NCBI RefSeq assembly: GCF_003046585.1
Contig: NZ_QAAE01000010.1
Span: 1-64,000 of the forward strand
Origin: Nitrosomonas aestuarii
GTDB taxonomy: Bacteria > Pseudomonadota > Gammaproteobacteria > Burkholderiales > Nitrosomonadaceae
Direction of reading: 5' to 3'
Length of the DNA: 64,000 bases
Part shown: in pieces, positions 638-12,612 of the stretch
How positions within the stretch are numbered: position 1 is the stretch's first letter
Layout of the letters: each line of letters begins with the position of its first letter
The notes under the pieces: generated by a model
Database searches by the model: none
Told to the model about the DNA's origin: nothing
The model's input: the letters and a program-made list of their open reading frames with translations, nothing else
Translations under genes and position numbers: made by a program

Positions 638-1072
638 TTAAAAGGCGCATTTCTCCTGTACCGTTAAACTTTGTATATAGCGCTTAGGTAACCTTTTCAG
701 CTTATATGCCACAGCAAGCAGCACATGCCAGGCATGTGCTTTATCCAGCCCCTGATAACGTAGTATTTTGCTGCCGAACCAACGTGCCTGACTGCCAAAA
801 GTACGCTCCACGACATACCGGGATTTGGTAATGAGGCGATTACGTTGTAATTGTCGCCGGGTCAGCGGTTTGTTCTTCACCGCTTTATGCTGGATGCCGT
901 TTTTGATCCCACGCGTCTTTAAAGCTTCATGGTGCTTCTGACTACAATAGGCCTTGTCACCATGCAGCCGCGAACCTGCTTTGATCGCAGCTTTATCAAG
1001 CAATGCCAACATCGGTTTACTATCATGCGCATTGGCAGCGATAGTTTCTATCACTGACACCAGGCCATTGTG
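638..1072 (-). pseudogene. IS5-family transposase, C-terminal fragment
   Basis: Only the C-terminal part of a DDE transposase remains. Visible landmarks are AANAHDSKPM and HGDKAYCSQ (region of the second catalytic Asp) and the Glu-containing YVVERTFGSQARWFG near the C-terminus, typical of IS5-group enzymes. The frame continues a few codons upstream of the GTG at 1060 (residues LHNGLV) and is then cut at about 1071, where the terminal sequence of an IS3-type element begins. The first catalytic Asp region is missing, so the protein cannot be active. No clear IS5 inverted repeat was recognised on the left side. Confidence 0.82.
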
Positions 1073-1247
1073 AAGTGGCCCCGGTTATTTGGACACCGGG
1101 AGGGGGTAAGTTAAGGAGTTATTTTCTGTATGATTATTTTTATAAATAAAAGGAGTACAGAAAATGAGCAAGAAACGTAGAAATCATTCACCGGAATTTA
1201 AATCAAAAGTTGCCTTTGCGGGTGCGGTGCGTGACATAGCAGTCTGA
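1071..1247 (+). mobile_element. IS3-family element remnant: end sequence and start of orfA
   Basis: The segment begins with TGAAGTGGCCCCGGTTATTT followed by GGACACC, which resembles IS3-group terminal inverted repeats (a TGA-start with a GGACACC block). An ATG at 1164, behind AAAGGAGTACAG, opens a frame MSKKRRNHSPEFKSKVAF, the standard start of an IS3 orfA helix-turn-helix protein. It loses similarity after about 20 residues and stops at 1245. The rest of orfA and all of orfB are absent. Its left end abuts the broken IS5 transposase exactly, consistent with insertion into that element followed by deletion. Confidence 0.75.
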
Positions 1248-1342
1248 GAAACTCATGCCCATTCCTATAACCAACTGATTGAAAACGGTATTATAGCATT
1301 ATTGCAGTACAACCATGCTGCTTGCCGTGCAAAAGCCTCTGT

Positions 1343-1768
1343 TCATGCCTTCGGCACTTCCCTTGGTCGCCGGTCGTTGTCGATGGCAACATAAGTCAAT
1401 ACCGCTTCGGTCACTTTAATACATATTTCCTCGCCGCCTTCCCGCGCACCGCGCTGGGCGTATACCGCCACATCTACAGTAATCGATGTTCGTCCTACCC
1501 CGACAATGTCTGCATAGAAACTGACAAGATCGCCCACCAGCACCGGTTGTTTGAATACGAACGAGTTCACGGCCACGGTGACAGCCCGGCCGCGTGCGCG
1601 TCGGATGGCCGGAATACTGCCTGCGATATCGACCTGCGACATGATCCAGCCACCGAAAATATCGCCGGCATAATTCGTATCTGATGATGTCGGCACCATA
1701 CGCAATACGGGCTGCTCTTCTGGCAGTGAAACATGCAGTGCCGCGTCACTGGTTGTTGTTTTTTGCAT
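1343..1768 (-). CDS. yciA: YciA-type acyl-CoA thioesterase (hotdog fold)
   Basis: The protein (141 aa) should hydrolyse acyl-CoA thioesters to free acid and CoA in the cytoplasm. The hotdog-fold signature GDIFGGWIMSQVDIAG lies near residues 35-50. It holds the Asp of this family, and the following FKQPVLVGDLVSFYADI is the usual second half of the fold. The length matches the single-domain YciA family, which forms hexamers. It is the last gene of a minus-strand run, 146 bases after the sulfotransferase, and its 3' end faces the insertion-sequence remnants. The family is well recognised; the in vivo substrate is not deducible. Confidence 0.85.
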   Translation of the reverse strand: MQKTTTSDAALHVSLPEEQPVLRMVPTSSDTNYAGDIFGGWIMSQVDIAGSIPAIRRARGRAVTVAVNSFVFKQPVLVGDLVSFYADIVGVGRTSITVDVAVYAQRGAREGGEEICIKVTEAVLTYVAIDNDRRPREVPKA

Positions 1769-1913
1769 TATCGATGATCTATCCAGTTTGTCGTTGCGAT
1801 GCTGCTGTTACATTATAAACAGGTTCAAAATGCTCATTTACTATAAATAAGCTTCGTTTCCCGCCTGCTATTACCTCGCATCGGCCATCTCGAAAACCTT
1901 TTTCAACGACCTG

Positions 1914-2837
1914 TTAAAGGACGCCATTCTCAAGCCACGCACGGCATTCCTTGTTCAATACACGATCACAAGCAGCATCGTATTGCGCCAGCTCATCATT
2001 AGAGAGCACATCACGCCAGCGCCCATTGGTCCCTTTGTGCAGAAAAGTTTTTGCGCCGCCCTTCCATAATTCTCCGCCTCCGGGTGCATACAGTTCACCC
2101 TGATTTTTCATTTCAGCAAACGAAACTGCTTTGACAATGCCGCTCCAGGCATTTTCGGGTATCTCTATCTCAAGAAACGCCGCCATGCGCCGAATCTCCC
2201 CTTCGGTATCTGTGAGCATATCGCCATAGTTAAACAGTTCGATATTGGGCAAATGACGAAAATCCCACCAGGATCGCACGTTTGACAGATGCGACCAGTA
2301 CGGCCAGCCGTCATGTTCCCATGCAAATGCGCCACGTGTTATCCAGCCGCGCCAGAAATCATGAATATCATCCGGTGGGGGCGGCAGTTCATCACCTTCC
2401 CGGCCGGACAGTATATTCATCAGCATGCGCGTCTCGTCCTTCATCTTGGTGTAATGATTCCATAAAGACATAAACACATCGCGCGGATCGCGGGCGATAT
2501 AGAGATATTTGATGTTTGCGTTATAAGACAGGCCATCCAGCGGCAGGTGTGTTTTGATAAAACGGCGATGCTGCTGCGCTTTTAATTTGTTCAACACAAT
2601 TTCGAGCGGCATAATGCGCATGTCGAGCCACGGTGACATTTCAAAGGGCGCTGCGGGGAAACAGCCATCTGGAAAGAGCAGATGCGCAACGATTGCCTGC
2701 GTCCATGTCGTCCCCGCCTTATACGACGTGGCAATGACTATATCATCATCGCGCGGTACAAAATAATCCCAGCGTGTACTGTCCATATGGTGGTTCTGAT
2801 AAATATGTTTTTGTTGCGGTAGATTCGACATTTGCAT
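1914..2837 (-). CDS. Sulfotransferase (Sulfotransfer_1, PAPS-dependent)
   Basis: This 307-aa protein should transfer sulfate from PAPS to a hydroxyl or amine of a small acceptor. It shows the complete cytosolic-type signature set: the 5'-phosphosulfate loop SYKAGTTWTQ near residue 45, the catalytic His in KTHLP near residue 95, the 3'-phosphate loop ARDPRDVFMSLWNHY near 120, and the C-terminal KGTNGRWRD corresponding to the RKGxxGDWK motif. It has no signal peptide. It follows the CocE-type hydrolase by 97 bases on the same strand and probably belongs to the same operon. The acceptor is unknown. The start could be ATG 2837 or the ATG two codons later. Confidence 0.9.
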   Translation of the reverse strand: MQMSNLPQQKHIYQNHHMDSTRWDYFVPRDDDIVIATSYKAGTTWTQAIVAHLLFPDGCFPAAPFEMSPWLDMRIMPLEIVLNKLKAQQHRRFIKTHLPLDGLSYNANIKYLYIARDPRDVFMSLWNHYTKMKDETRMLMNILSGREGDELPPPPDDIHDFWRGWITRGAFAWEHDGWPYWSHLSNVRSWWDFRHLPNIELFNYGDMLTDTEGEIRRMAAFLEIEIPENAWSGIVKAVSFAEMKNQGELYAPGGGELWKGGAKTFLHKGTNGRWRDVLSNDELAQYDAACDRVLNKECRAWLENGVL

Positions 2838-2934
2838 GACCTGTTGAATTGATTTGGCGATAATTTAAAGGAACGTTTCAGATTTGGCAAATATATGCTG
2901 ATGCGCTTACCGGGTATCTTCTAAAGCGCATCCA

Positions 2935-4947
2935 TCAAACAAGCTTCCGCCTTATACGGCGATTCCAGTTTTTTGAAAAAACCCGTTTGCCTGCTTCATA
3001 AGCATCGAGTTCGGCATCCAGGTAAAAATAATTTTCATCACAGCGCAACACCGTACGTGTAATTGTTTTAACCTGCCAGTCTCCACGTTCAAAACTTCTC
3101 GTCCACAGCGTTTCACCCTTCGCTGAGCTAAAGTCATCACCCTGGTAGGAATACCATTCTTCGGTTTTACGCTGCACCTTCAGATCAATATCTTCAAGTT
3201 GATACAGCCCGTTATCATTAATTACTTCGAGCGTTGAGATATCCTGATCCAGCTCCCGGATAACACGCCAGTTATGATGCCCTTCCTTGATCTGCCGCTG
3301 CTGGCTACTGACGGATGCTTCGGCATCAGGGAAATTGATACATTCTTCTCTTGGCGTGCGTACCGGCAGTATCAAACGGCTACTGCCAATATGGATTTTC
3401 AATTGTGCAGACTGTGGCGGCGGCCAGGCTAAAGGGAAATAGGATGAAGAAATTGCGATACGAATACGGTGTCCTTTTGGCAGACTCTGCGCCACATCAT
3501 TTAACTGCACACGAACCGGATACACCTTGTCTGGTTGCAAGGATGACGGATCGGCATGACTGTCACGATGAGTTAAATTCAGCATACCATAAGTGATACG
3601 AGTTACTTTGTTGTCCGGGCGCATATCGGATAAGCGAACAGCGATCATCGCCACTGGCCGGTTCGCCGACAGCTCCAGTTCAAGCACCGGCGCACCCAGT
3701 ATTTCAAGTGTTTCCAGCAATGGTGTGGTGGTAAACAACAATGCACCACCATCTTCTTCTCGTTGATCATGTGGCAAATCCGGCGTTGCACTGTACGAGC
3801 ACCATTTACCAGCGAATAAACCGTTACTCAGCGGTGATTGCAGTGTCAGAGCATGCGCTGCCACATTATTATCTTCATCGACCAGGCGGTATTCATCCAG
3901 TTTGTATATACGCGGCATGATATTGGGAGAAGGCCAGCATGACTCACTTATCCAGCGGCCATAGCGTTGATGATAAAATGTCGACGGCGGCATGCTGTCG
4001 AGCATCCATGCGCGCAGCATGGGTTCACCCATGATGTCCGTTTCCTGGTTCTTGAGCCATTTATCCCACCAGCGAAGACATTCCTGCAAAAAACCGATTG
4101 CCGGTCCGGGCACGCCCAAGTGCGGATATTTATGACTCCAGGGTCCAATCAATCCTAAACGGGGGCCCGATAAATTTGCCAGCAAGCGAAATACGGCATT
4201 GGAATAACCATCAGCCCAGCCACTGACCGCCATCACAGGGATATTCACTCTGGAATAATCCTCACAAATAGAACCATGCCGCCAGTATTCACCGCGATGC
4301 TGATGCTGCAGCCAGATTTCCAGCCAGAGGCCACTGCCCTGTAACCGTTCAAACCACATATCGCGCCACTTGCCCCCGACGATAGCCGGGTCTGGCGGCA
4401 GTGAGTTATAAGCAAACATGGTCGAAGCCCAGGAAAGATTGTCTCCGAGCAGGCATCCGCCCATATAATGTACATCATCCGCATAACGATCATCCGTGGA
4501 ACACACGCTGACAACTGCTTTAAGCGCCGGTGGCTGCATTGCTGCAATCTGCAGTCCATTAAAACCACCCCAGGAAATGCCTATCATACCTACATTACCA
4601 TTGCACCATGATTGCTGTACCAGCCACTTAATTACCGCGACGCCATCATTGAGTTCCTGCTGCAGATACTCGTCACACAATACGCCTTCTGAATCACCGC
4701 TGCCACGTATATCCACACGTATACAGGCATAACCATGACCAGCAAAGTACGGGTGCATTGTTTCATCGCGCAAACGCACGCCATCGCGTTTACGGTAAGG
4801 AATATATTCGAGTATGGCCGGAACAGGACTGGCTTCGGCACTTTCAGGCATCCAGATACGCGCGGCTAACCTTATACCATCGGGCATCGCAATCCAAAGA
4901 TGCTCGATATGCCGAATCCTGTGCGGAAAATCGCTAACGATTTTCAT
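2935..4947 (-). CDS. CocE/NonD-family serine hydrolase
   Basis: This 670-aa alpha/beta hydrolase belongs to the cocaine-esterase / X-Pro dipeptidyl-peptidase family. The nucleophile elbow is GISWGG with Ser125. The Asp of VSGWADG and the His of GPWSHKYPH are the likely remaining triad members. The C-terminal half is the beta-rich jelly-roll domain found in CocE and X-Pro peptidases. No signal peptide is seen, so it acts in the cytoplasm. The ATG lies 9 bases after the ATP-grasp stop codon, and its ribosome binding site (AAGG) spans that stop, suggesting coupled translation. Such enzymes cleave esters, amides or N-terminal dipeptides; the substrate here is unknown. Confidence 0.88.
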   Translation of the reverse strand: MKIVSDFPHRIRHIEHLWIAMPDGIRLAARIWMPESAEASPVPAILEYIPYRKRDGVRLRDETMHPYFAGHGYACIRVDIRGSGDSEGVLCDEYLQQELNDGVAVIKWLVQQSWCNGNVGMIGISWGGFNGLQIAAMQPPALKAVVSVCSTDDRYADDVHYMGGCLLGDNLSWASTMFAYNSLPPDPAIVGGKWRDMWFERLQGSGLWLEIWLQHQHRGEYWRHGSICEDYSRVNIPVMAVSGWADGYSNAVFRLLANLSGPRLGLIGPWSHKYPHLGVPGPAIGFLQECLRWWDKWLKNQETDIMGEPMLRAWMLDSMPPSTFYHQRYGRWISESCWPSPNIMPRIYKLDEYRLVDEDNNVAAHALTLQSPLSNGLFAGKWCSYSATPDLPHDQREEDGGALLFTTTPLLETLEILGAPVLELELSANRPVAMIAVRLSDMRPDNKVTRITYGMLNLTHRDSHADPSSLQPDKVYPVRVQLNDVAQSLPKGHRIRIAISSSYFPLAWPPPQSAQLKIHIGSSRLILPVRTPREECINFPDAEASVSSQQRQIKEGHHNWRVIRELDQDISTLEVINDNGLYQLEDIDLKVQRKTEEWYSYQGDDFSSAKGETLWTRSFERGDWQVKTITRTVLRCDENYFYLDAELDAYEAGKRVFSKNWNRRIRRKLV

Positions 4948-4956
4948 ATGAATACC

Positions 4957-6285
4957 TTAATTGGATATCTGCCGATCGACGGGCTCAAGTTCGATACGCA
5001 TTGCCTGTTGTACATCACGGTATTTCTGAAGTAATTCTTTCTGAGTGTTACCCCCCAGAAAGATGACCGCGATTTCATAACTGTAACTGTCCTGATCCTT
5101 GAGTTCCGACAAATACATACCGCTGTGTATATGCAGTTGAATATCTGCCTCTGGAAACTGCCGTTTGAGGACTGACAAATCGTTCGCTGTCGGCACATGT
5201 CTAACATAAGCGTCTTTGTAAATCCGCCACATGAATTTAGCGGCTACTTTATAGTTGCCCTGACGGTATGGAAAATCAGGTTTCTGTCCCAGTGCGAGTT
5301 CCAGCATGACTTTTTGATGCGTAGCGCCGTCCACATCACGAAACAGCGGGCAGTGTGACTTGGAAATGCGCGTATTAATCTCCAACAACCAGATTTTGTC
5401 CTCCGCATGCTGATGGTGCTCCCAATAATATTCGATATTGAAAGGCCCATTATCAAAATCGATATACTCGAGAAAATGTCGGGTAACCGCGGTCATTTCC
5501 TGCTGAATACGCTGTGGAATCATCGACGGGTATTGATATCGCGCAAAACTGCAACGGTGCTGACCCTCGCGGATTGAATCAACAACACCGTAAACAGTAA
5601 CCTCACCCTGATAAACATAGCCCTCAAGTGTGCATTGCCGCCCCCGGGATATAATGCTCTCAACTATGCAATAATTCCCATCCACGTTTGCCACTTCATC
5701 CGGCAACCGGGCAAATTGCAGCATATAGTTGAATGGATTGGCAAAACGGAAAATCTTTCTGCGAATGGTCTGGATCGCCTGTTTAAGCTCGGCATCATTA
5801 CGCACCTTGAAGCCCAAATGCGAGGAAGCTGCTTTGACCGGTTTTATCCAGAAAGGATAAGCAACTGTAATCGACTGGCCAGGCTCATCTGCAAAAGGGT
5901 TGACCGCACAAAAATCGGGGATATATTCCGGCACGATTTTTTTTTGCTCCAGACGGCACCAGTATTTATGCTCGCACTTAAGCACCGCTTCATAACTGGG
6001 CGACGCCAGGCCATAGGGTTTTCGCAACAATGGCAACATGATACTGACCGGAAAATCCCAGTATCCTACAATGGCGTCTACAGAACCGGGAAACCGTTTC
6101 AATTGCTCAAGCGCGCCTTCATATAAAGCCTTGACGGGAAATTCGAGACCTGACTTTACCTGACGAAAACTGAAAAGCTCATGAAAACGGTAATTCGCTG
6201 CAGAATCCAGTGCCTGCATTTGGGCTAAATTAAATTGATCTGCACCAAACACAAATATATTGTTCTGAGCAGATTTCATTTTCAT
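4957..6285 (-). CDS. ATP-grasp domain protein, putative carboxylate-amine ligase
   Basis: A protein of about 442 aa with an ATP-grasp core. The phosphate-binding Lys lies in PFWIKPVKAASS (near residue 150), the adenine-side Glu in YCIVESI, and the Mg-binding Glu and Asn in FNIEYYW and LLEINTRIS (near residue 300). These enzymes activate a carboxylate as acyl-phosphate and join it to an amine or thiol. The first gene of a minus-strand set, it runs directly into the CocE hydrolase and then the sulfotransferase. A GTG 21 bases upstream could also start it. I do not recognise a characterised orthologue; an amide- or peptide-forming role is inferred from the fold. Confidence 0.82.
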   Translation of the reverse strand: MKMKSAQNNIFVFGADQFNLAQMQALDSAANYRFHELFSFRQVKSGLEFPVKALYEGALEQLKRFPGSVDAIVGYWDFPVSIMLPLLRKPYGLASPSYEAVLKCEHKYWCRLEQKKIVPEYIPDFCAVNPFADEPGQSITVAYPFWIKPVKAASSHLGFKVRNDAELKQAIQTIRRKIFRFANPFNYMLQFARLPDEVANVDGNYCIVESIISRGRQCTLEGYVYQGEVTVYGVVDSIREGQHRCSFARYQYPSMIPQRIQQEMTAVTRHFLEYIDFDNGPFNIEYYWEHHQHAEDKIWLLEINTRISKSHCPLFRDVDGATHQKVMLELALGQKPDFPYRQGNYKVAAKFMWRIYKDAYVRHVPTANDLSVLKRQFPEADIQLHIHSGMYLSELKDQDSYSYEIAVIFLGGNTQKELLQKYRDVQQAMRIELEPVDRQISN

Positions 6286-6361
6286 TTTAATTACACAACC
6301 TGACACAATTCATGGAGTATTCTACAATAGCACATGCTGGAAAAACTTACATGACAGGCTG

Positions 6362-7049
6362 GGCATGCGATACACGGACGGGCCACTTTATTTGATGACC
6401 GGCATGAGTTTCGCACCGGTGACACCGATACCAATTACCGTTCCCTGTCCTGGTTTACTATGCTTAACGACTGGCTGGCCACTTCCCCGCAAATGTGCAC
6501 ACTGAATCGCAATTAAATCGGCCGGCACACCAATAAACTGGAAGTACTGCATTTTGCCAAATCCGCCGGTCTTCAGGTGCCGACCACTCAGGTTACCAAT
6601 GATTGCTATCTTATCGATGCGCTTAGCGTGGAAGTTAAAATGATCACCAAACCCGTCCCCGGCGGCGATATTATGAGCTTGTCCAAACGCTTCGGGACCA
6701 AATCGCGTTCCCCGCGGGCACTGCAGCCAGTCCGGCAATTATCCAGCCAGAACTCCACAGAATCTATCTGCGTATCTATCGACTGGACAGAAGCTATTTT
6801 GGATTCTTTATTAACGCCGATACCGTCGACTACCGGAAAACACGCAACCGTAAAATCGAATGCGCCAAGCAACTGCCCATTGCAATATTAACCGGATTCG
6901 AGCGCCTGATGGACACCATGCATCTTGATTGGGAAGCGGTAGATTTCAAGTGGTATTATCGCGTATCTGTTGCAAAATTCACCAGATTGATATATGCATA
7001 CCCGCCAATTGAGAAGGCGCATGGATTATCGCTAATGGCTTTTACCTGA
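6362..7049 (+). pseudogene. Degenerate MvdC/MvdD-like ATP-grasp gene
   Basis: Translating in shifting frames recovers most of an ATP-grasp protein of the type that modifies ribosomal peptides. The pieces are YRSLSWFTMLNDWLATSP, then (after an in-frame stop near 6516) NKLEVLHFAKSAGLQVPTTQ with VTND, then, in another frame, PAIIQPELHRIYLRIY, SYFGFFINADTVDYRKTR and LDWEAVDFKW. At least two frameshifts separate them and the N-terminal third is missing. It lies head-to-head with the intact ATP-grasp gene and 50 bases before the DUF455 gene. It cannot make a functional enzyme as read. A reverse-strand open frame over the same bases is a shadow. Confidence 0.75.
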
Positions 7050-7099
7050 AAAACACGCGACAATACATTTTTTTGACATATCTGTATTTGTAGGTCGTT

Positions 7100-7909
7100 A
7101 TGAATTCCCTGTTTGAAGCAGCCGAACGCTGTTTGAAATCCCGTAAGATCGAAGAAAAGCTATATTTGACACAAGAAGCTTCACAGGCCTGGCAACAAGG
7201 ATTATTATCGCTTGAACCAACGTGCAAACCTGAACCGATCAGCGAACCAGGACGCCCAGACAAGCCTGTTCTGGTGATGCCCGGAGATGTCCCCAAGCGG
7301 CGCTTGGGGACAAAAGCAGGGCTGGCCGCACTGATTCATGCGGTGACACATATCGAGTTCAACGCCATTCATCTTGCCTGGGATGCTGTATATCGTTTCC
7401 GTGGTCTACCAAAGCAATTTTACGGCGACTGGTTGCACGTAGCCCACGAAGAAGCCTACCATTTTCAATTACTGCGCGAACGCCTCAATGAACTCGGGCA
7501 TGACTACGGCGACTTTCCCGCTCACAACGGTTTATGGGAGATGACCAGGAAAACCGCTTTTGATCCGATGGTACGCATGGCGCTTGTCCCACGTGTCCTG
7601 GAAGCCAGAGGGCTGGATGTAACACCCGGCATTATAAAACGCTTACGCAACGCAGGTGAAGACAAAACAGTTGCTCTACTGGAAATTATTATGCAAGACG
7701 AAATCGGCCATGTAAAAATAGGTTCACACTGGTTTAAATATTTTTGCAATCAACGCGGTCTGAACTCTGAACAGACATTCCGCAGTTTGCTGAACCAGTA
7801 TTTTACGGGAAAAATATCCGGTCCTTTTCATTTTGAAGCCAGGCAAAAAGCAGGCTTTACCAATAATGAATTAAAAGCGCTTGAGGACTTGGAAATCCCG
7901 GAAGCATAA
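7100..7909 (+). CDS. DUF455 family protein, ferritin-like fold
   Basis: This 269-aa protein belongs to the DUF455 family, a ferritin-like four-helix-bundle group of unknown reaction. The metal-ligand pattern is visible in order: HIEFNAIH, AHEEAYHF, EARGLD and QDEIGHVKIG, that is, repeated Glu and ExxH pairs expected to bind a di-iron or di-manganese centre. No signal peptide or membrane segment is seen. It is a single gene, convergent with the EAL-HDOD gene downstream. The family is certain; the substrate is not known. Confidence 0.88.
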   Translation: MNSLFEAAERCLKSRKIEEKLYLTQEASQAWQQGLLSLEPTCKPEPISEPGRPDKPVLVMPGDVPKRRLGTKAGLAALIHAVTHIEFNAIHLAWDAVYRFRGLPKQFYGDWLHVAHEEAYHFQLLRERLNELGHDYGDFPAHNGLWEMTRKTAFDPMVRMALVPRVLEARGLDVTPGIIKRLRNAGEDKTVALLEIIMQDEIGHVKIGSHWFKYFCNQRGLNSEQTFRSLLNQYFTGKISGPFHFEARQKAGFTNNELKALEDLEIPEA

Positions 7910-7931
7910 CCTCTCTTCAACCATGATTCAA

Positions 7932-9176
7932 TTAATCCGGCGAATTTACCATTTCGCTGATACGGTTTGCCCAGGCCAGGGCCTCGAGCTCCATTACGGT
8001 AAATTCACTCATGCTGATAAAACCCAGCTCTGTCAGCGCCGTTAGCACTGTTTCAAATTCACCTTGCTCATGCGCCTCAATTAATGCCAGTTGACGACCT
8101 AGATATCCACGTCGTGACAATAACGCATCACCCATATCCTTTTGTATACTGAGCGTTTCCACAAGTTCGGACATTTCCATGTCCAGCAGGGCATCAAGTA
8201 ACGATAAAACACCCACCATAAAGGCGCGGTCGTGATGATTTTTATCATGAGGGCGATCTGCAATTGCAATAAGTTCTAACAATTTGCCACGAACTGAGGC
8301 TGTCTGAACTAATGCATCGGACGAACTGCCATCCTTTTGTTTGGCGGTATACAGCAATATCTGCACCCACCTCTGTAGCTGTTTCCGGCCCAGTATCATG
8401 ATGGCCCGTTTAATTGAATTAATCGTTTTGGGCATACCTGTGGCCGCAGAATTGACCATGCGCAGCAGATTATAGCTTAAGCCAGGCTGATATTTGAATT
8501 CATTCTCAATTTCAGTAACATCGCCATCTTTGACAATGAGCAGAAGTAATTTCAGCAATGACAATTTGGAAGGGTCGATCCGCTTGCCGGAAATAATCTC
8601 CGGTTTTGCAAAATAAAAACCCTGCAACATATTGAAGCCCAGGGCTATGCACTTTTTTGCAGTTTTACGGTTTTCAACTTTCTCAGCGAGCAGTAAAACC
8701 GGCCATCGTTTTAAATTATTAATCAGACAGGTTAATTCCTTTTCATTTAACGCGTTGACATTTATTTTAACGACATTGACCAATGGCAACAGACGCTCAA
8801 ACTGCTTATCTATACGAACTACACTGGAAAGTGCGATCTGATAGCCTTTACGGCTTAACTCTGAACAGCGCTGAATAATCTCATCATTAATTTCAACACT
8901 TCTGAGTATTTCAAAAACTATATGATTTTTTGGAAGTAGAAAAACCGCATCACTTAATAAAAATTTGGCGTCCACTTTTATAAAACCGCGCCGCCTCCCC
9001 ATGACATTTTCAATACCCAGCTGTCCGTAGGTATCAATAATGACACTTGCCGAGGCTGCCCGATTATCCGTGACACTGACTTCATTTTGTTGGTTATCAC
9101 GAAACAACAATTCAAATGCCGCTATATTCTGCTTGCTGTCAAGTATTGGCAGCCTGCCAAGAAAGACGTCCTTCAT
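7932..9176 (-). CDS. EAL-HDOD (YuxH-type) signalling protein
   Basis: The 414-aa protein combines an N-terminal EAL-like domain (about residues 1-200) with a C-terminal HDOD domain (about 200-400). The EAL signature is degenerate: the start reads FELLFR where an active c-di-GMP phosphodiesterase has an E-A/V-L-x-R motif, and the later catalytic acidic cluster is not obvious. Cleavage of c-di-GMP is therefore unlikely and a binding or scaffold role more probable. HDOD domains lack the HD metal site and act in signalling. It is cytoplasmic and monocistronic. A second HDOD gene lies at 30948-31781. Confidence 0.85.
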   Translation of the reverse strand: MKDVFLGRLPILDSKQNIAAFELLFRDNQQNEVSVTDNRAASASVIIDTYGQLGIENVMGRRRGFIKVDAKFLLSDAVFLLPKNHIVFEILRSVEINDEIIQRCSELSRKGYQIALSSVVRIDKQFERLLPLVNVVKINVNALNEKELTCLINNLKRWPVLLLAEKVENRKTAKKCIALGFNMLQGFYFAKPEIISGKRIDPSKLSLLKLLLLIVKDGDVTEIENEFKYQPGLSYNLLRMVNSAATGMPKTINSIKRAIMILGRKQLQRWVQILLYTAKQKDGSSSDALVQTASVRGKLLELIAIADRPHDKNHHDRAFMVGVLSLLDALLDMEMSELVETLSIQKDMGDALLSRRGYLGRQLALIEAHEQGEFETVLTALTELGFISMSEFTVMELEALAWANRISEMVNSPD

Positions 9177-9402
9177 ATTTGACCCTGTATACCCATGATC
9201 CTGTATCGCGAAGTGATTCCTTACACCCTACACCCAGAACGAACCAATACACCCAGTGTAATTCAGTATGCTTATTGCCTGAACTGTATTCATAATATGT
9301 GGCAGTCTAACCGAGTACAAGCAAACACCATTGCTCATTTAAGCAAAGTTTATGCCTTCTATTTAAGAGATTTGTTTGCTAAAAACAGCTATAGTGCATG
9401 CA

Positions 9403-10686
9403 TCAAAACACACGGACAATTCCTGGAAACACCATCACAATCGCCAATGCAATCAGCTGCAGAAAAATAAAAGGAATAACACCACGATAGATCTCCAGGG
9501 TACTGACCGATGCGGGTGCTACTCCTCGCAGATAGAACAGTGAAAACCCGAAAGGAGGCGTCAAAAATGACGCCTGCAAATTTAAGGCGATAAGGATGCC
9601 AAACCAAAGTGGATCAATGTCCAGTTTTAGCAGTACAGGCGCAATCATGGGTACAAAAATATAGGCGATTTCGACAAAATCGATAAAGAAGCCAAGCAAA
9701 AAAATGACGAGCATCATTAATATAACAAACCCCCATTGACCACCAGGAATATATTGCATGATTTCCTCAACGGCCTCATCGCCGCCGGTATAGGTAAATA
9801 CCATCGAAAAGAACGTAGCGCCCGCCAGAATGGTAAACACCATTGCGCTGATTTTAGTCGTTTCCATCGCGACCTGGTGCAGCATGGAGAACCGGAAGCG
9901 GCCACCTGGCAGCGCCAGAATAATCGCCCCCACTGCTCCCATGGCTGCTGATTCTGTCGGTGTAGCAACACCGGCAATAACAGTGCCCAGTACTACCATA
10001 ATCAGTGCCAGTGCAGGTACGATCGCTTTAAATACCTGCCAATAATGAACGGTGCTCAAAGCGGAGCTGCGTGGTATCGGGGGTGCGAAATCTTTCTTTA
10101 AATAGGCAGCAACCAGACATACAATGATATACAACACGACCAGCAACAGACCGGGCAGCAGTGCAGCACGGTAAAAATCACCTACAGGCTGTTGCAAGAC
10201 ATCGCCAAGAATGATAAGCACGATGGAAGGCGGAATAATCTGCCCAAGCGTACCCGAAGCGCAGATCACACCGCTGGCCAACTTTTTGTCATAGCTGTAT
10301 TTCAGCATCACCGGCAAGGCAATCAAACCCATGGTAACAACCGAAGCGCCTACTACACCGGTCGATGCCGCCAGCAACATACCAACCACAACTGTGGAAA
10401 CAGCCAGACCACCCCGCACATGTCCGAACAATAATCCCATGGACTCAAGCATTCTTTCTGCAATACCCGATTTTTCGAGGATCAGTCCCATGAAAATAAA
10501 AAGCGGTACCGCCATCAGGGTGACATTGGTCATAATTGCATGCAGGCGGTATGCTACCAACAGAAAAAGATCAAGTCCTTGTGTATATAACCCGAACAAT
10601 ACCGCCACACCACCAAATGTAAATGCAACGGGATAACCCAATGTCAGCATCAGCAGACAGACGATGAACATGATCAGTGCGATCAT
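9403..10686 (-). CDS. dctM: TRAP transporter large permease, DctM family
   Basis: This very hydrophobic 427-aa protein has about a dozen membrane segments and family landmarks such as the N-terminal GYPVAFTFGG, ASTGVVGASVVTMG and TPTESAAMGA. It forms the ion-coupled translocation subunit of a tripartite ATP-independent periplasmic transporter for organic or keto acids. Its ATG overlaps the dctQ stop codon by four bases, so the two are translationally coupled. No dctP periplasmic binding-protein gene is present nearby; that component must be encoded elsewhere. Substrate unknown. Confidence 0.92.
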   Translation of the reverse strand: MIALIMFIVCLLMLTLGYPVAFTFGGVAVLFGLYTQGLDLFLLVAYRLHAIMTNVTLMAVPLFIFMGLILEKSGIAERMLESMGLLFGHVRGGLAVSTVVVGMLLAASTGVVGASVVTMGLIALPVMLKYSYDKKLASGVICASGTLGQIIPPSIVLIILGDVLQQPVGDFYRAALLPGLLLVVLYIIVCLVAAYLKKDFAPPIPRSSALSTVHYWQVFKAIVPALALIMVVLGTVIAGVATPTESAAMGAVGAIILALPGGRFRFSMLHQVAMETTKISAMVFTILAGATFFSMVFTYTGGDEAVEEIMQYIPGGQWGFVILMMLVIFLLGFFIDFVEIAYIFVPMIAPVLLKLDIDPLWFGILIALNLQASFLTPPFGFSLFYLRGVAPASVSTLEIYRGVIPFIFLQLIALAIVMVFPGIVRVF

Positions 10687-11234
10687 AATTTTTCTTGATA
10701 CGACTTGTTACTCTTGGCCGGCATCGCTGTATCACCCGCCAGCAAACGGATATTACGGGAAACAAAAGCACATGACTGAATTAATACAAGAAAATAACCG
10801 AGTGGAAGCAACGCTTTGAATACAAAACGATAAGACAGTCCGCCCGGATCGTTTGATACTTCCTGAACTTCATACGAATAGGCAACAAAATCGAACGAAC
10901 TGTACAAAATCAATGTACACATGGGTATCACAAAAAATACTGTACCAAAGACATCAATCACAGCTTTGTTGCGGGTCGACATTTTTTCGTACCAGACATC
11001 GACCCGTACATTCGCGTTTTCACGCATGGTATATGCCGCGCCTAACAGAAAAACGGCAGCGAACAAATGCCATTCCATTTCCTGCATTGCGATTGACCCG
11101 GAGTCAAACAGATAACGTGCAATGACATCTATAAAAACGACAGCGACCATCAAAATGCACAACCAACCCGCCAGCCAGCCAAAAGCGCCGGACAATCGGC
11201 CTACTGCACACTCGAATTTGCGCAAGGCTTCCAT
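10683..11234 (-). CDS. dctQ: TRAP transporter small permease, DctQ family
   Basis: The small four-helix membrane subunit that pairs with DctM. Hydrophobic segments are visible from about residue 20, including GWLAGWLCILMVAVVFIDVIARY and the downstream AVFLLGAAYTMRENANVRVD, a typical DctQ stretch. I chose the ATG at 11234 (about 183 aa), 13 bases after the pmbA stop; the frame also extends to a TTG at 11261 that would overlap pmbA. This tight spacing suggests that pmbA, dctQ and dctM are co-transcribed, an unusual grouping. Confidence 0.88.
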   Translation of the reverse strand: MEALRKFECAVGRLSGAFGWLAGWLCILMVAVVFIDVIARYLFDSGSIAMQEMEWHLFAAVFLLGAAYTMRENANVRVDVWYEKMSTRNKAVIDVFGTVFFVIPMCTLILYSSFDFVAYSYEVQEVSNDPGGLSYRFVFKALLPLGYFLVLIQSCAFVSRNIRLLAGDTAMPAKSNKSYQEKL

Positions 11235-11247
11235 AGTCAGCGCAAAT

Positions 11248-12612
11248 TTAGCCGCCCGCAATTGTCATATGATCTATCAAGATGGAACCACTTTGTTTGG
11301 AGCCGCGGACAACAACATCGTCACCGATCGCTGAAATACCGCGGAACATTTCTTTCAGATTCCCCGCGATTGTAATTTCTTCAACGGGGTAACAGATCTC
11401 ACCATTTTCTACCCAGTAACCGGATGCACCGCGTGAATAATCACCTGTAACCGAATTCACCCCATGACCCATCAATTCAGTAACCAACAACCCTTTGTTC
11501 ATTTTTCTAAGCATGGCTGCAAAAGCCATCGGCTTCCCGTCGTCGATAATCAGATTATGAGCACCACCGGCATTTCCTGTCGTTTGCATGCCAAGTTTAC
11601 GTGCAGAATAACTACTCAGAAAGTAACCGTTCACTATGCCGTTTGAAACAACATCACGTTCAACAGTCGCCACACCTTCGTCATCAAAGAAACCGCTGGC
11701 CAGGCCTTTTGGTAAATGTGGCAATTCACGTATATTGATATTATCTGCAAAAACCTGCTGACCAATGCTATTCGATAAAAAAGAAGATTTACGATAAAGA
11801 CTACTACCACTGACTGCAGAGGCAAAATGTCCAATCACGCTTGATGCCACAGGCGCTTCAAATAATACCGGCACGTCACAGGTTGCTATTTTGCGCGCAC
11901 CCAGCCGGGCAACGGTTCGCTCCCCGGCTTTTCGGCCTATTTGGCCAATTGATTCAAGATCACGGGTATCACGTGCAACGCTGTACCAATAATCTCTTTG
12001 TTTCGAATCGCCCTGCTCTGCGATCGCCACACAACTGGCACTGTGTCGCGAATACGGATATCCTCCAAGAAAACCCAGGCTATTGGCATACACAAATTGC
12101 GATTCATCAACCGATATACTGGCACCTTCAGAATTGGTAATACGTTTATCTACAGCAAATGCAGTTTGCTCGCAGTCGCGTGCAAGTGCTATCGCTTCCT
12201 CCACAGACAAATCCCAGGGATGATACAAATCCAGATCCTGGAAAGTCTGCGCCAGAAGCGTCGCATCTGCTAATCCTGAACATTCATCTTCAGCTGTATG
12301 GCGTGCAATCGACAACGCAGCAGAAACCGTATCACTAATCGCCTGAGGTGAAAAATCGGATGTACTGGCATTTCCGCGCTTGTGGCCAATGTAAACGGTT
12401 ACTGAAAGCCCTTTATCACGATTATATTCTATTGTTTCCACTTCGCTTTTGCGCACAGTCACAGTCTGTCCAAAACCATCGGACACATGCGTTTCGCACG
12501 CATTGGCACCGCTTCGTCTGGCTTGTTCCAGGATGTCGCGTGCGATTTCCTGGAGTCTGGAAAAAGGATATGAAAAACGGGTATATGTGTTCGTTGTCGA
12601 TAACTTATTCAT
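11248..12612 (-). CDS. pmbA: Metalloprotease subunit PmbA (TldE)
   Basis: PmbA/TldE is the partner subunit of the TldD/E zinc protease, which trims peptides such as microcin precursors and CcdA in the cytoplasm. The sequence is typical: the N-terminal ARRSGANACETHVSDG, central EGASISVDESQFVYANS and C-terminal NLIIDDGKP, TELMGHGVNSVTGDYSRGA and GNLKEMF. It lacks the HExxxH of TldD, as expected. The ATG at 12612 gives 454 aa, close to the usual 450; an upstream ATG at 12678 is also open. It is divergent from darP, a common pairing. tldD is not in the window. Confidence 0.93.
   Translation of the reverse strand: MNKLSTTNTYTRFSYPFSRLQEIARDILEQARRSGANACETHVSDGFGQTVTVRKSEVETIEYNRDKGLSVTVYIGHKRGNASTSDFSPQAISDTVSAALSIARHTAEDECSGLADATLLAQTFQDLDLYHPWDLSVEEAIALARDCEQTAFAVDKRITNSEGASISVDESQFVYANSLGFLGGYPYSRHSASCVAIAEQGDSKQRDYWYSVARDTRDLESIGQIGRKAGERTVARLGARKIATCDVPVLFEAPVASSVIGHFASAVSGSSLYRKSSFLSNSIGQQVFADNINIRELPHLPKGLASGFFDDEGVATVERDVVSNGIVNGYFLSSYSARKLGMQTTGNAGGAHNLIIDDGKPMAFAAMLRKMNKGLLVTELMGHGVNSVTGDYSRGASGYWVENGEICYPVEEITIAGNLKEMFRGISAIGDDVVVRGSKQSGSILIDHMTIAGG

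Follow-up and report, generated by a model that had tools for sequence, protein, structure and literature searches.

An ATP-grasp enzyme, a serine hydrolase and a sulfotransferase are encoded in tandem on the minus strand of a contig (G000:C10) in the 3.44-Mb genome of Nitrosomonas aestuarii, and the locus raises the question of whether the three act in one pathway. We analysed the 64,000 nucleotides that contain them, hereafter the window. A first-pass annotation had read the genes as one apparent operon for the ligation, trimming and sulfation of a small metabolite, and the families that it named agree with the open reading frames and with both the Pfam and the NCBIfam matches. The ATP-grasp gene (4957–6285, minus strand, 442 aa; PF13535, E 2e-10), which has an in-frame GTG at 6306 besides the called start, is followed after 9 bases (4948–4956) by the gene of a CocE/NonD (peptidase S15-like) serine hydrolase (2935–4947, minus strand, 670 aa). 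Both this short gap and the ribosome binding site described at the stop codon agree with the sequence, where TAAGG at the end of the ATP-grasp gene is probably the ribosome binding site of the CocE gene. A spacer of 97 bases (2838–2934) separates the latter from the gene of a cytosolic-type sulfotransferase (1914–2837, minus strand), which matches PF00685 (Sulfotransfer_1) with an E-value of 1.2e-39 and 136.7 bits for a cut-off of 22. Its probable start is the second ATG (2831), as suggested by the upstream sequences of its homologues.

The three genes are flanked by a YciA-like acyl-CoA thioesterase gene (1343–1768, minus strand; PF03061, with NF007970 under its cut-off) and, on the other side of the ATP-grasp and CocE pair, by a DUF455 gene (7100–7909, plus strand; Pfam). 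Genomes G066 and G067 have the DUF455 gene at this flank too, as does G095, where the pair is missing. A DDE transposase fragment (638–1060, minus strand; PF01609) adjoins the YciA-like gene. Between the pair and DUF455, at approximately 6388–7000, there are short open reading frames, possibly from a decayed gene, and likewise at 10340–11980 of locus L124. In this stretch, one piece from the window, two pieces from G066 and the interval 6388–6738 had no Pfam match. None of the three proteins matched any PADLOC family of known anti-phage defence, and the reading of the locus as a defence system was therefore dropped.

Within the genus, the sulfotransferase is mostly unlinked to the pair. It has a match in 58 of the 85 genomes and an orthologue (at least 72% identity) in 44, the genome of the window included, and 40 of these 44 lack the close ATP-grasp gene. 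The ATP-grasp gene is present in seven of the 85 genomes, in 11 copies, ten of them with CocE and one at a contig end. Three of the seven genomes have no sulfotransferase orthologue. The other four (G000, G066, G067 and G010) carry it, in G010 on another contig, and it stands beside the pair at three of the 11 copies, all from one lineage. No sulfotransferase match was found in the genome of G081, whose pair is the nearest to that of the window, nor, at 17 pair loci from beyond the genus, in the stretches examined. More often, the sulfotransferase has the YciA-like thioesterase as its neighbour: of the 16 orthologue loci examined, 12 have it nearby, namely the window at 1343–2837, L041–L044, L046, L051, L124, L125 and L131–L133. 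In G095 the YciA-like, sulfotransferase, DUF455 and HDOD genes keep the order of the window, with another gene at the position of the pair.

A three-step pathway, in which one operon provides ligation, trimming and sulfation and yields a sulfated metabolite, has some observations in its favour. The order YciA, sulfotransferase, CocE, ATP-grasp, DUF455 is complete in G066 and G067, with a gap of 89–97 bases between CocE and sulfotransferase in these genomes and in the window, and co-transcription is thus possible in that lineage. A 47% identical sulfotransferase lies about 1.1 kb downstream of the pair of G034, with an open reading frame of 211 residues between them. These cases speak against a pure-bystander view, but they are few, and the window, G066 and G067 make up a single lineage. 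Given the distribution of the sulfotransferase, we regard such a pathway as very improbable and have rejected the three-gene operon as a functional unit, while keeping it as a rival explanation in view of the common gene order in G066 and G067. We judge the sulfotransferase to be mostly a local bystander that does something other than the pair. The tandem arrangement in the first-pass annotation thus stood, the single operon of all three genes was not borne out, and sulfation as a third step and the small sulfated metabolite found no support. Two candidate elements of the CocE–sulfotransferase spacer were also rejected. A putative terminator, seen by eye as a 9-pair inverted repeat, lacks a T run, and the folding of the whole spacer is no better than that of shuffled sequences (z −0.13). 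A weak promoter-like site (TTGCCA-17-TAAATT at 2890–2862) is only partly alignable across 13 genomes, and such sites are about as frequent in the region as chance predicts (11 against 10.3).

In contrast to the sulfotransferase, ATP-grasp and CocE form a conserved pair, such that the trio looks like two units. In the large samples we scored three or four candidates per genome, so that weaker or extra copies can escape, e.g., a 48% identical CocE beside the third copy of G484 was only found when the locus was viewed. Among 398 genomes of Pseudomonadota there are 11 close ATP-grasp genes (more than 490 bits) in ten genomes, and each of them is directly upstream of a CocE gene of one subfamily, with at least 1068 bits. 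CocE genes of at least 1068 bits number 12, one of which has no close ATP-grasp partner, and they are absent from the other 388 genomes among the candidates scored (Fisher p 4e-20, kinship ignored). The remaining CocE matches with E no higher than 1e-150 score at most 924 bits and number 43, in 38 genomes, none of which has an ATP-grasp gene of the close family. Two genomes encode a distant ATP-grasp protein (172 and 44 bits) and have no listed CocE.

We searched 396 genomes of Actinomycetota for the ATP-grasp gene and 42 of these for CocE, i.e., the 23 with an ATP-grasp match and 19 negatives, which were the first listed and no random draw. All 18 genomes with a close ATP-grasp (at least 432 bits) carry a CocE of this subfamily, clade A (the G652 copy is a contig-end fragment), and none of the five with a distant ATP-grasp (277 to 345 bits) has a CocE. 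No negative genome reached 500 bits for CocE (three had weaker matches, from 271 to 498 bits). Of the 18 genomes, 12 have the two genes side by side, two of these in reversed order (G544 and G751). In G499 the genes share a contig but are separated by 36 kb, and in five genomes they are on different contigs, partly perhaps as a result of assembly breaks. The pair is also found in Nitrospirales. Relatives of the ATP-grasp gene turned up at nine loci when named genomes were scanned with a pattern (Nitrosomonas, Nitrospirales, Microbulbifer and four actinobacterial genera), with the hydrolase at eight and a sulfotransferase at none within the fetched stretch. A plasmid-borne pair was considered and rejected: in 215 plasmid records CocE identity reaches 50.4% at best, and ATP-grasp has six matches, all of them remote (31–34%). 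The neighbourhood comparison suggested with the first-pass annotation therefore supports the view that ATP-grasp and CocE belong together, and separates from them a sulfotransferase that is mostly unlinked in related genomes.

The organisation of the pair is nearly constant. At 26 of 27 pair loci both genes are on one strand, ligase then hydrolase, separated by −4 to 93 bases, counted up to the residue at which the CocE alignment begins (4 in L009 and 7 in L102). Seven of the 27 loci have 4-base overlaps, and L010 is divergent. Genes at the fetched loci were called with a simple script, which overlooked at least the L100 and L112 CocE genes. The distances between ATP-grasp proteins correlate with those between CocE proteins across the 27 pairs (r 0.915), and none of 5000 permutations gave a value as high. 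Both trees separate, with good support, three lineages of pairs within the genus, and both place the Nitrosomonas pair of G034 as the sister of the Nitrospirales pair (99/94 and 99/98). They disagree on where to place G081, whose proteins are 81/85% identical to those of the window, and at several forks that have weak support. The best explanation is that the pair moved between lineages as a unit. Its neighbours vary outside the genus. A second copy in G010 is decayed in both genes, the start of ATP-grasp being joined to the end of CocE (L054, approximately 6100–6612; G010:C102). A manganese-catalase-like gene, recognised by eye, is near the ATP-grasp gene or the pair at L008, L103 and L104 (one cluster in the gene-cluster comparison), and other stress-type genes are beside two of these three loci.

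What might the two enzymes do together? The ATP-grasp protein looks like an amide or peptide ligase, closest to the L-amino acid (dipeptide) ligases. Its AF2 model (pLDDT 87.4) ranks five entries of three such enzymes before all others in VIA-align, with Z of 29.1 (3vot_A), 27.6 (4wd3_A), 26.7 (3vmm), 26.6 and 26.2. It superposes 380 of its 442 residues on 3vot_A (rmsd 3.7), and the best PDB profile match is BL00235 (E 2.8e-9). The earlier suggestion that this enzyme forms an amide is thus favoured by both the predicted fold and the profile. L-amino acid ligases have a Glu/Asn/Arg motif at the metal site, to which residues E302, N304 and R306, invariant in all 13 ATP-grasp members, may correspond. 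In the alignment with BL00235 the Glu and the Arg are matched, and Gly replaces the Asn. The margin of the modelled fold over purine and biotin enzymes is modest, and the fold reveals no substrate: the row after the five ligase entries, GAR synthetase (4dim, Z 25.7), trails the last of them by less than 1, further neighbours (down to Z 22.2) include PurK, PurT and biotin carboxylase, and identity to any listed row is 9–17%. Among NCBIfam profiles, urea carboxylase weakly matches all 13 members (best E 5.8e-11), and five of them have a weak match (best E 3.8e-13) to an argininosuccinate lyase model that contains an ATP-grasp. Distant ATP-grasp relatives with 27–33% identity are found in other families (L014–L018, L155 and L156), with no CocE and no evident common neighbour within the stretches examined.

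The family of the CocE protein is clear from PF02129 (E 2e-69, 234.6 bits for a cut-off of 23), PF08530 (E 1.6e-43) and the NCBIfam model CocE_NonD TIGR00976 (E 5.1e-69, 233.8 bits for a cut-off of 66.3). With the Xaa-Pro dipeptidyl-peptidase equivalog NF003781 it scores 43.8 bits, under the cut-off of 881. Cocaine esterase is its top PDB profile match (E 3.8e-40), followed by alpha-amino acid ester hydrolases (1mpx and 2b4k). Ser125, Asp246, His272 and Tyr51 are invariant in both alignments (A2, ten rows, and A4, nine rows), and their motifs align with cocaine esterase. Ser, Asp and His make up the catalytic triad of such hydrolases, and Tyr their oxyanion motif. Enzymes of this type cleave esters as well as amides. 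The protein has no apparent signal peptide, and its structure model is poor (pLDDT 59.7).

Cousins of the hydrolase that lack the ligase are the best clue to its function. We examined eight loci of the 43 Pseudomonadota CocE genes without ATP-grasp. Six of them have oligopeptide-type ABC genes (L107–L111 and L113; domains checked on L108 and L110) and two have a BCCT-type transporter gene beside the hydrolase (L112 and L114; domain checked on L114). We also viewed 11 of the 215 plasmid CocE records, and all ten that were annotated have an ABC transporter within 8 kb. A glycine betaine ABC transporter, a trimethylamine-methyltransferase-family gene and Rieske/ferredoxin genes are each found at one plasmid locus. 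The cousins stand by transporters and the paired hydrolase by a ligase, hence transporter and ligase look like alternative sources of substrate. We infer that the hydrolase family acts on small peptide-like or betaine-like amides or esters, delivered by one or the other. G484 has a third CocE of clade A (L098) without an ATP-grasp of the close family, and 2.2 kb away from it an ATP-grasp of the D-Ala-D-Ala-ligase type. At this locus (5484–10716; G484:C1), two CocE genes that are 48% identical cluster with the latter.

Taken together, ATP-grasp and CocE probably form a freestanding module: inside the cell, the ligase would produce a dipeptide-like compound that serves the hydrolase as substrate. 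This reading builds on the enzyme families and their catalytic motifs, the near-strict co-occurrence, the correlated divergence and the fold of the ligase. The ATP-grasp enzyme would activate a carboxylate with ATP and join it to an amine, and the serine hydrolase would act on the resulting compound or its immediate precursor, either to recycle it when unneeded or to trim it. That a single compound links both enzymes, that it is dipeptide-like, and that it is recycled rather than trimmed, are the suggested parts of this scheme. An intracellular location is suggested by the lack of a fixed exporter or regulator at the freestanding pair. In the Nitrosomonas-like lineage, the module would lie beside a sulfotransferase of the genus that has another job. 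It counts against this explanation that a ligase paired with an enzyme that hydrolyses what it makes would cycle futilely unless the two were regulated, and no conserved linked regulator was seen at pair loci.

Besides the pathway ending in sulfation, two other readings of the pair compete with a module for making and recycling. CocE could be a biosynthetic acyltransferase or trimming enzyme, and no degrader, that turns an activated or blocked intermediate of the ligase into the final product. Alpha-amino acid ester hydrolases, which run aminolysis, are among its profile matches (1mpx and 2b4k), and the strict pairing with ATP-grasp fits a biosynthetic step. The cousin genes beside importers look catabolic, however, and we hold a biosynthetic CocE to be unlikely. 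It is more doubtful still that the ATP-grasp enzyme carries out a carboxylation or another non-peptide reaction of the PurK/biotin carboxylase type beside an esterase. The fold scores of the purine and biotin enzymes named above (Z 22.2 to 25.7) and the weak urea carboxylase match in every member are in line with such a reaction, but L-amino acid ligases come first both by fold and by PDB sequence profile, and we recognised by eye no biotin carrier or purine gene among the neighbours.

A narrower version of the preferred module, which we propose only tentatively and think rather unlikely to hold in full, is a two-gene system, not described before and passed on horizontally, with which bacteria from three or more phyla make and recycle an intracellular dipeptide-like compatible solute, perhaps a betaine conjugate. 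The idea of a betaine conjugate comes from the hydrolase cousins beside BCCT, glycine betaine ABC, trimethylamine-methyltransferase-family and Rieske/ferredoxin genes. In the Pseudomonadota sample, ectoine synthase is found in seven of the ten pair genomes and in 50 of the 388 others, and four of the ten belong to a single family (f38), in which eight sampled genomes carry ectoine synthase. Within the genus, it is found in none of the seven pair genomes and in six of the 78 others. The association in the phylum is thus not repeated in the genus, and the salt link is weak and confounded. A role in salt tolerance or as compatible solute is therefore speculative.

The near-exceptionless co-occurrence in two phyla and the pairing in a third, even where the genes are not adjacent, predict a shared metabolite, for which the literature searched gave no name. 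As there is no other fixed partner, the two genes should be easy to express and assay, and the product could emerge quickly. It would give a function to many genes annotated as 'ATP-grasp domain' and 'CocE/NonD' and, if it is a solute, add to the few known peptide-type osmolytes.

As far as we searched the literature, in which most subscription papers were out of reach, no ATP-grasp with a CocE-type partner has been described. This agrees with the first-pass annotation, which recognised no characterised pathway with this gene set: the fixed combination appears new, and each of the enzyme families is already known. The likeness to L-amino acid ligases (BL00235, 3vot; RizA, 4wd3; BacD/YwfE, 3vmm) extends over nearly the full length of the ATP-grasp fold, whereas identity is only 14–15%, and, unlike for the window's enzyme, we know of no CocE partner for them. 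The hydrolase shares its catalytic and PepX_C domains with cocaine esterase, CocE/NonD, peptidase S15 and alpha-amino acid ester hydrolases, from which it differs by belonging to a subfamily tied to ATP-grasp and by about 110 residues beyond the PepX_C match. Its nearest plasmid cousins, up to 50% identical, are the CocE genes by peptide or glycine betaine ABC transporters on rhizobial and other plasmids. Such transporter-side cousins differ in that their 38 Pseudomonadota genomes have no ATP-grasp of the window's family and in that their substrate is apparently imported. Eight open reading frames scanned from 638 to 9176 for the gene set of N-acetylglutaminylglutamine amide (NAGGN) matched other Pfam families or none, and the other loci, judged by eye, gave no sign of the set. 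That set, the operon PA3459–PA3461 of Pseudomonas aeruginosa, comprises an asparagine-synthase-like enzyme, an acetyltransferase-ligase and a glutamyl aminopeptidase (PMC8070244), families other than those of the window's genes. It yields an osmoprotectant (PMC8070244) and offers a precedent for the proposed module, with enzymes of dipeptide synthesis encoded beside a peptidase.
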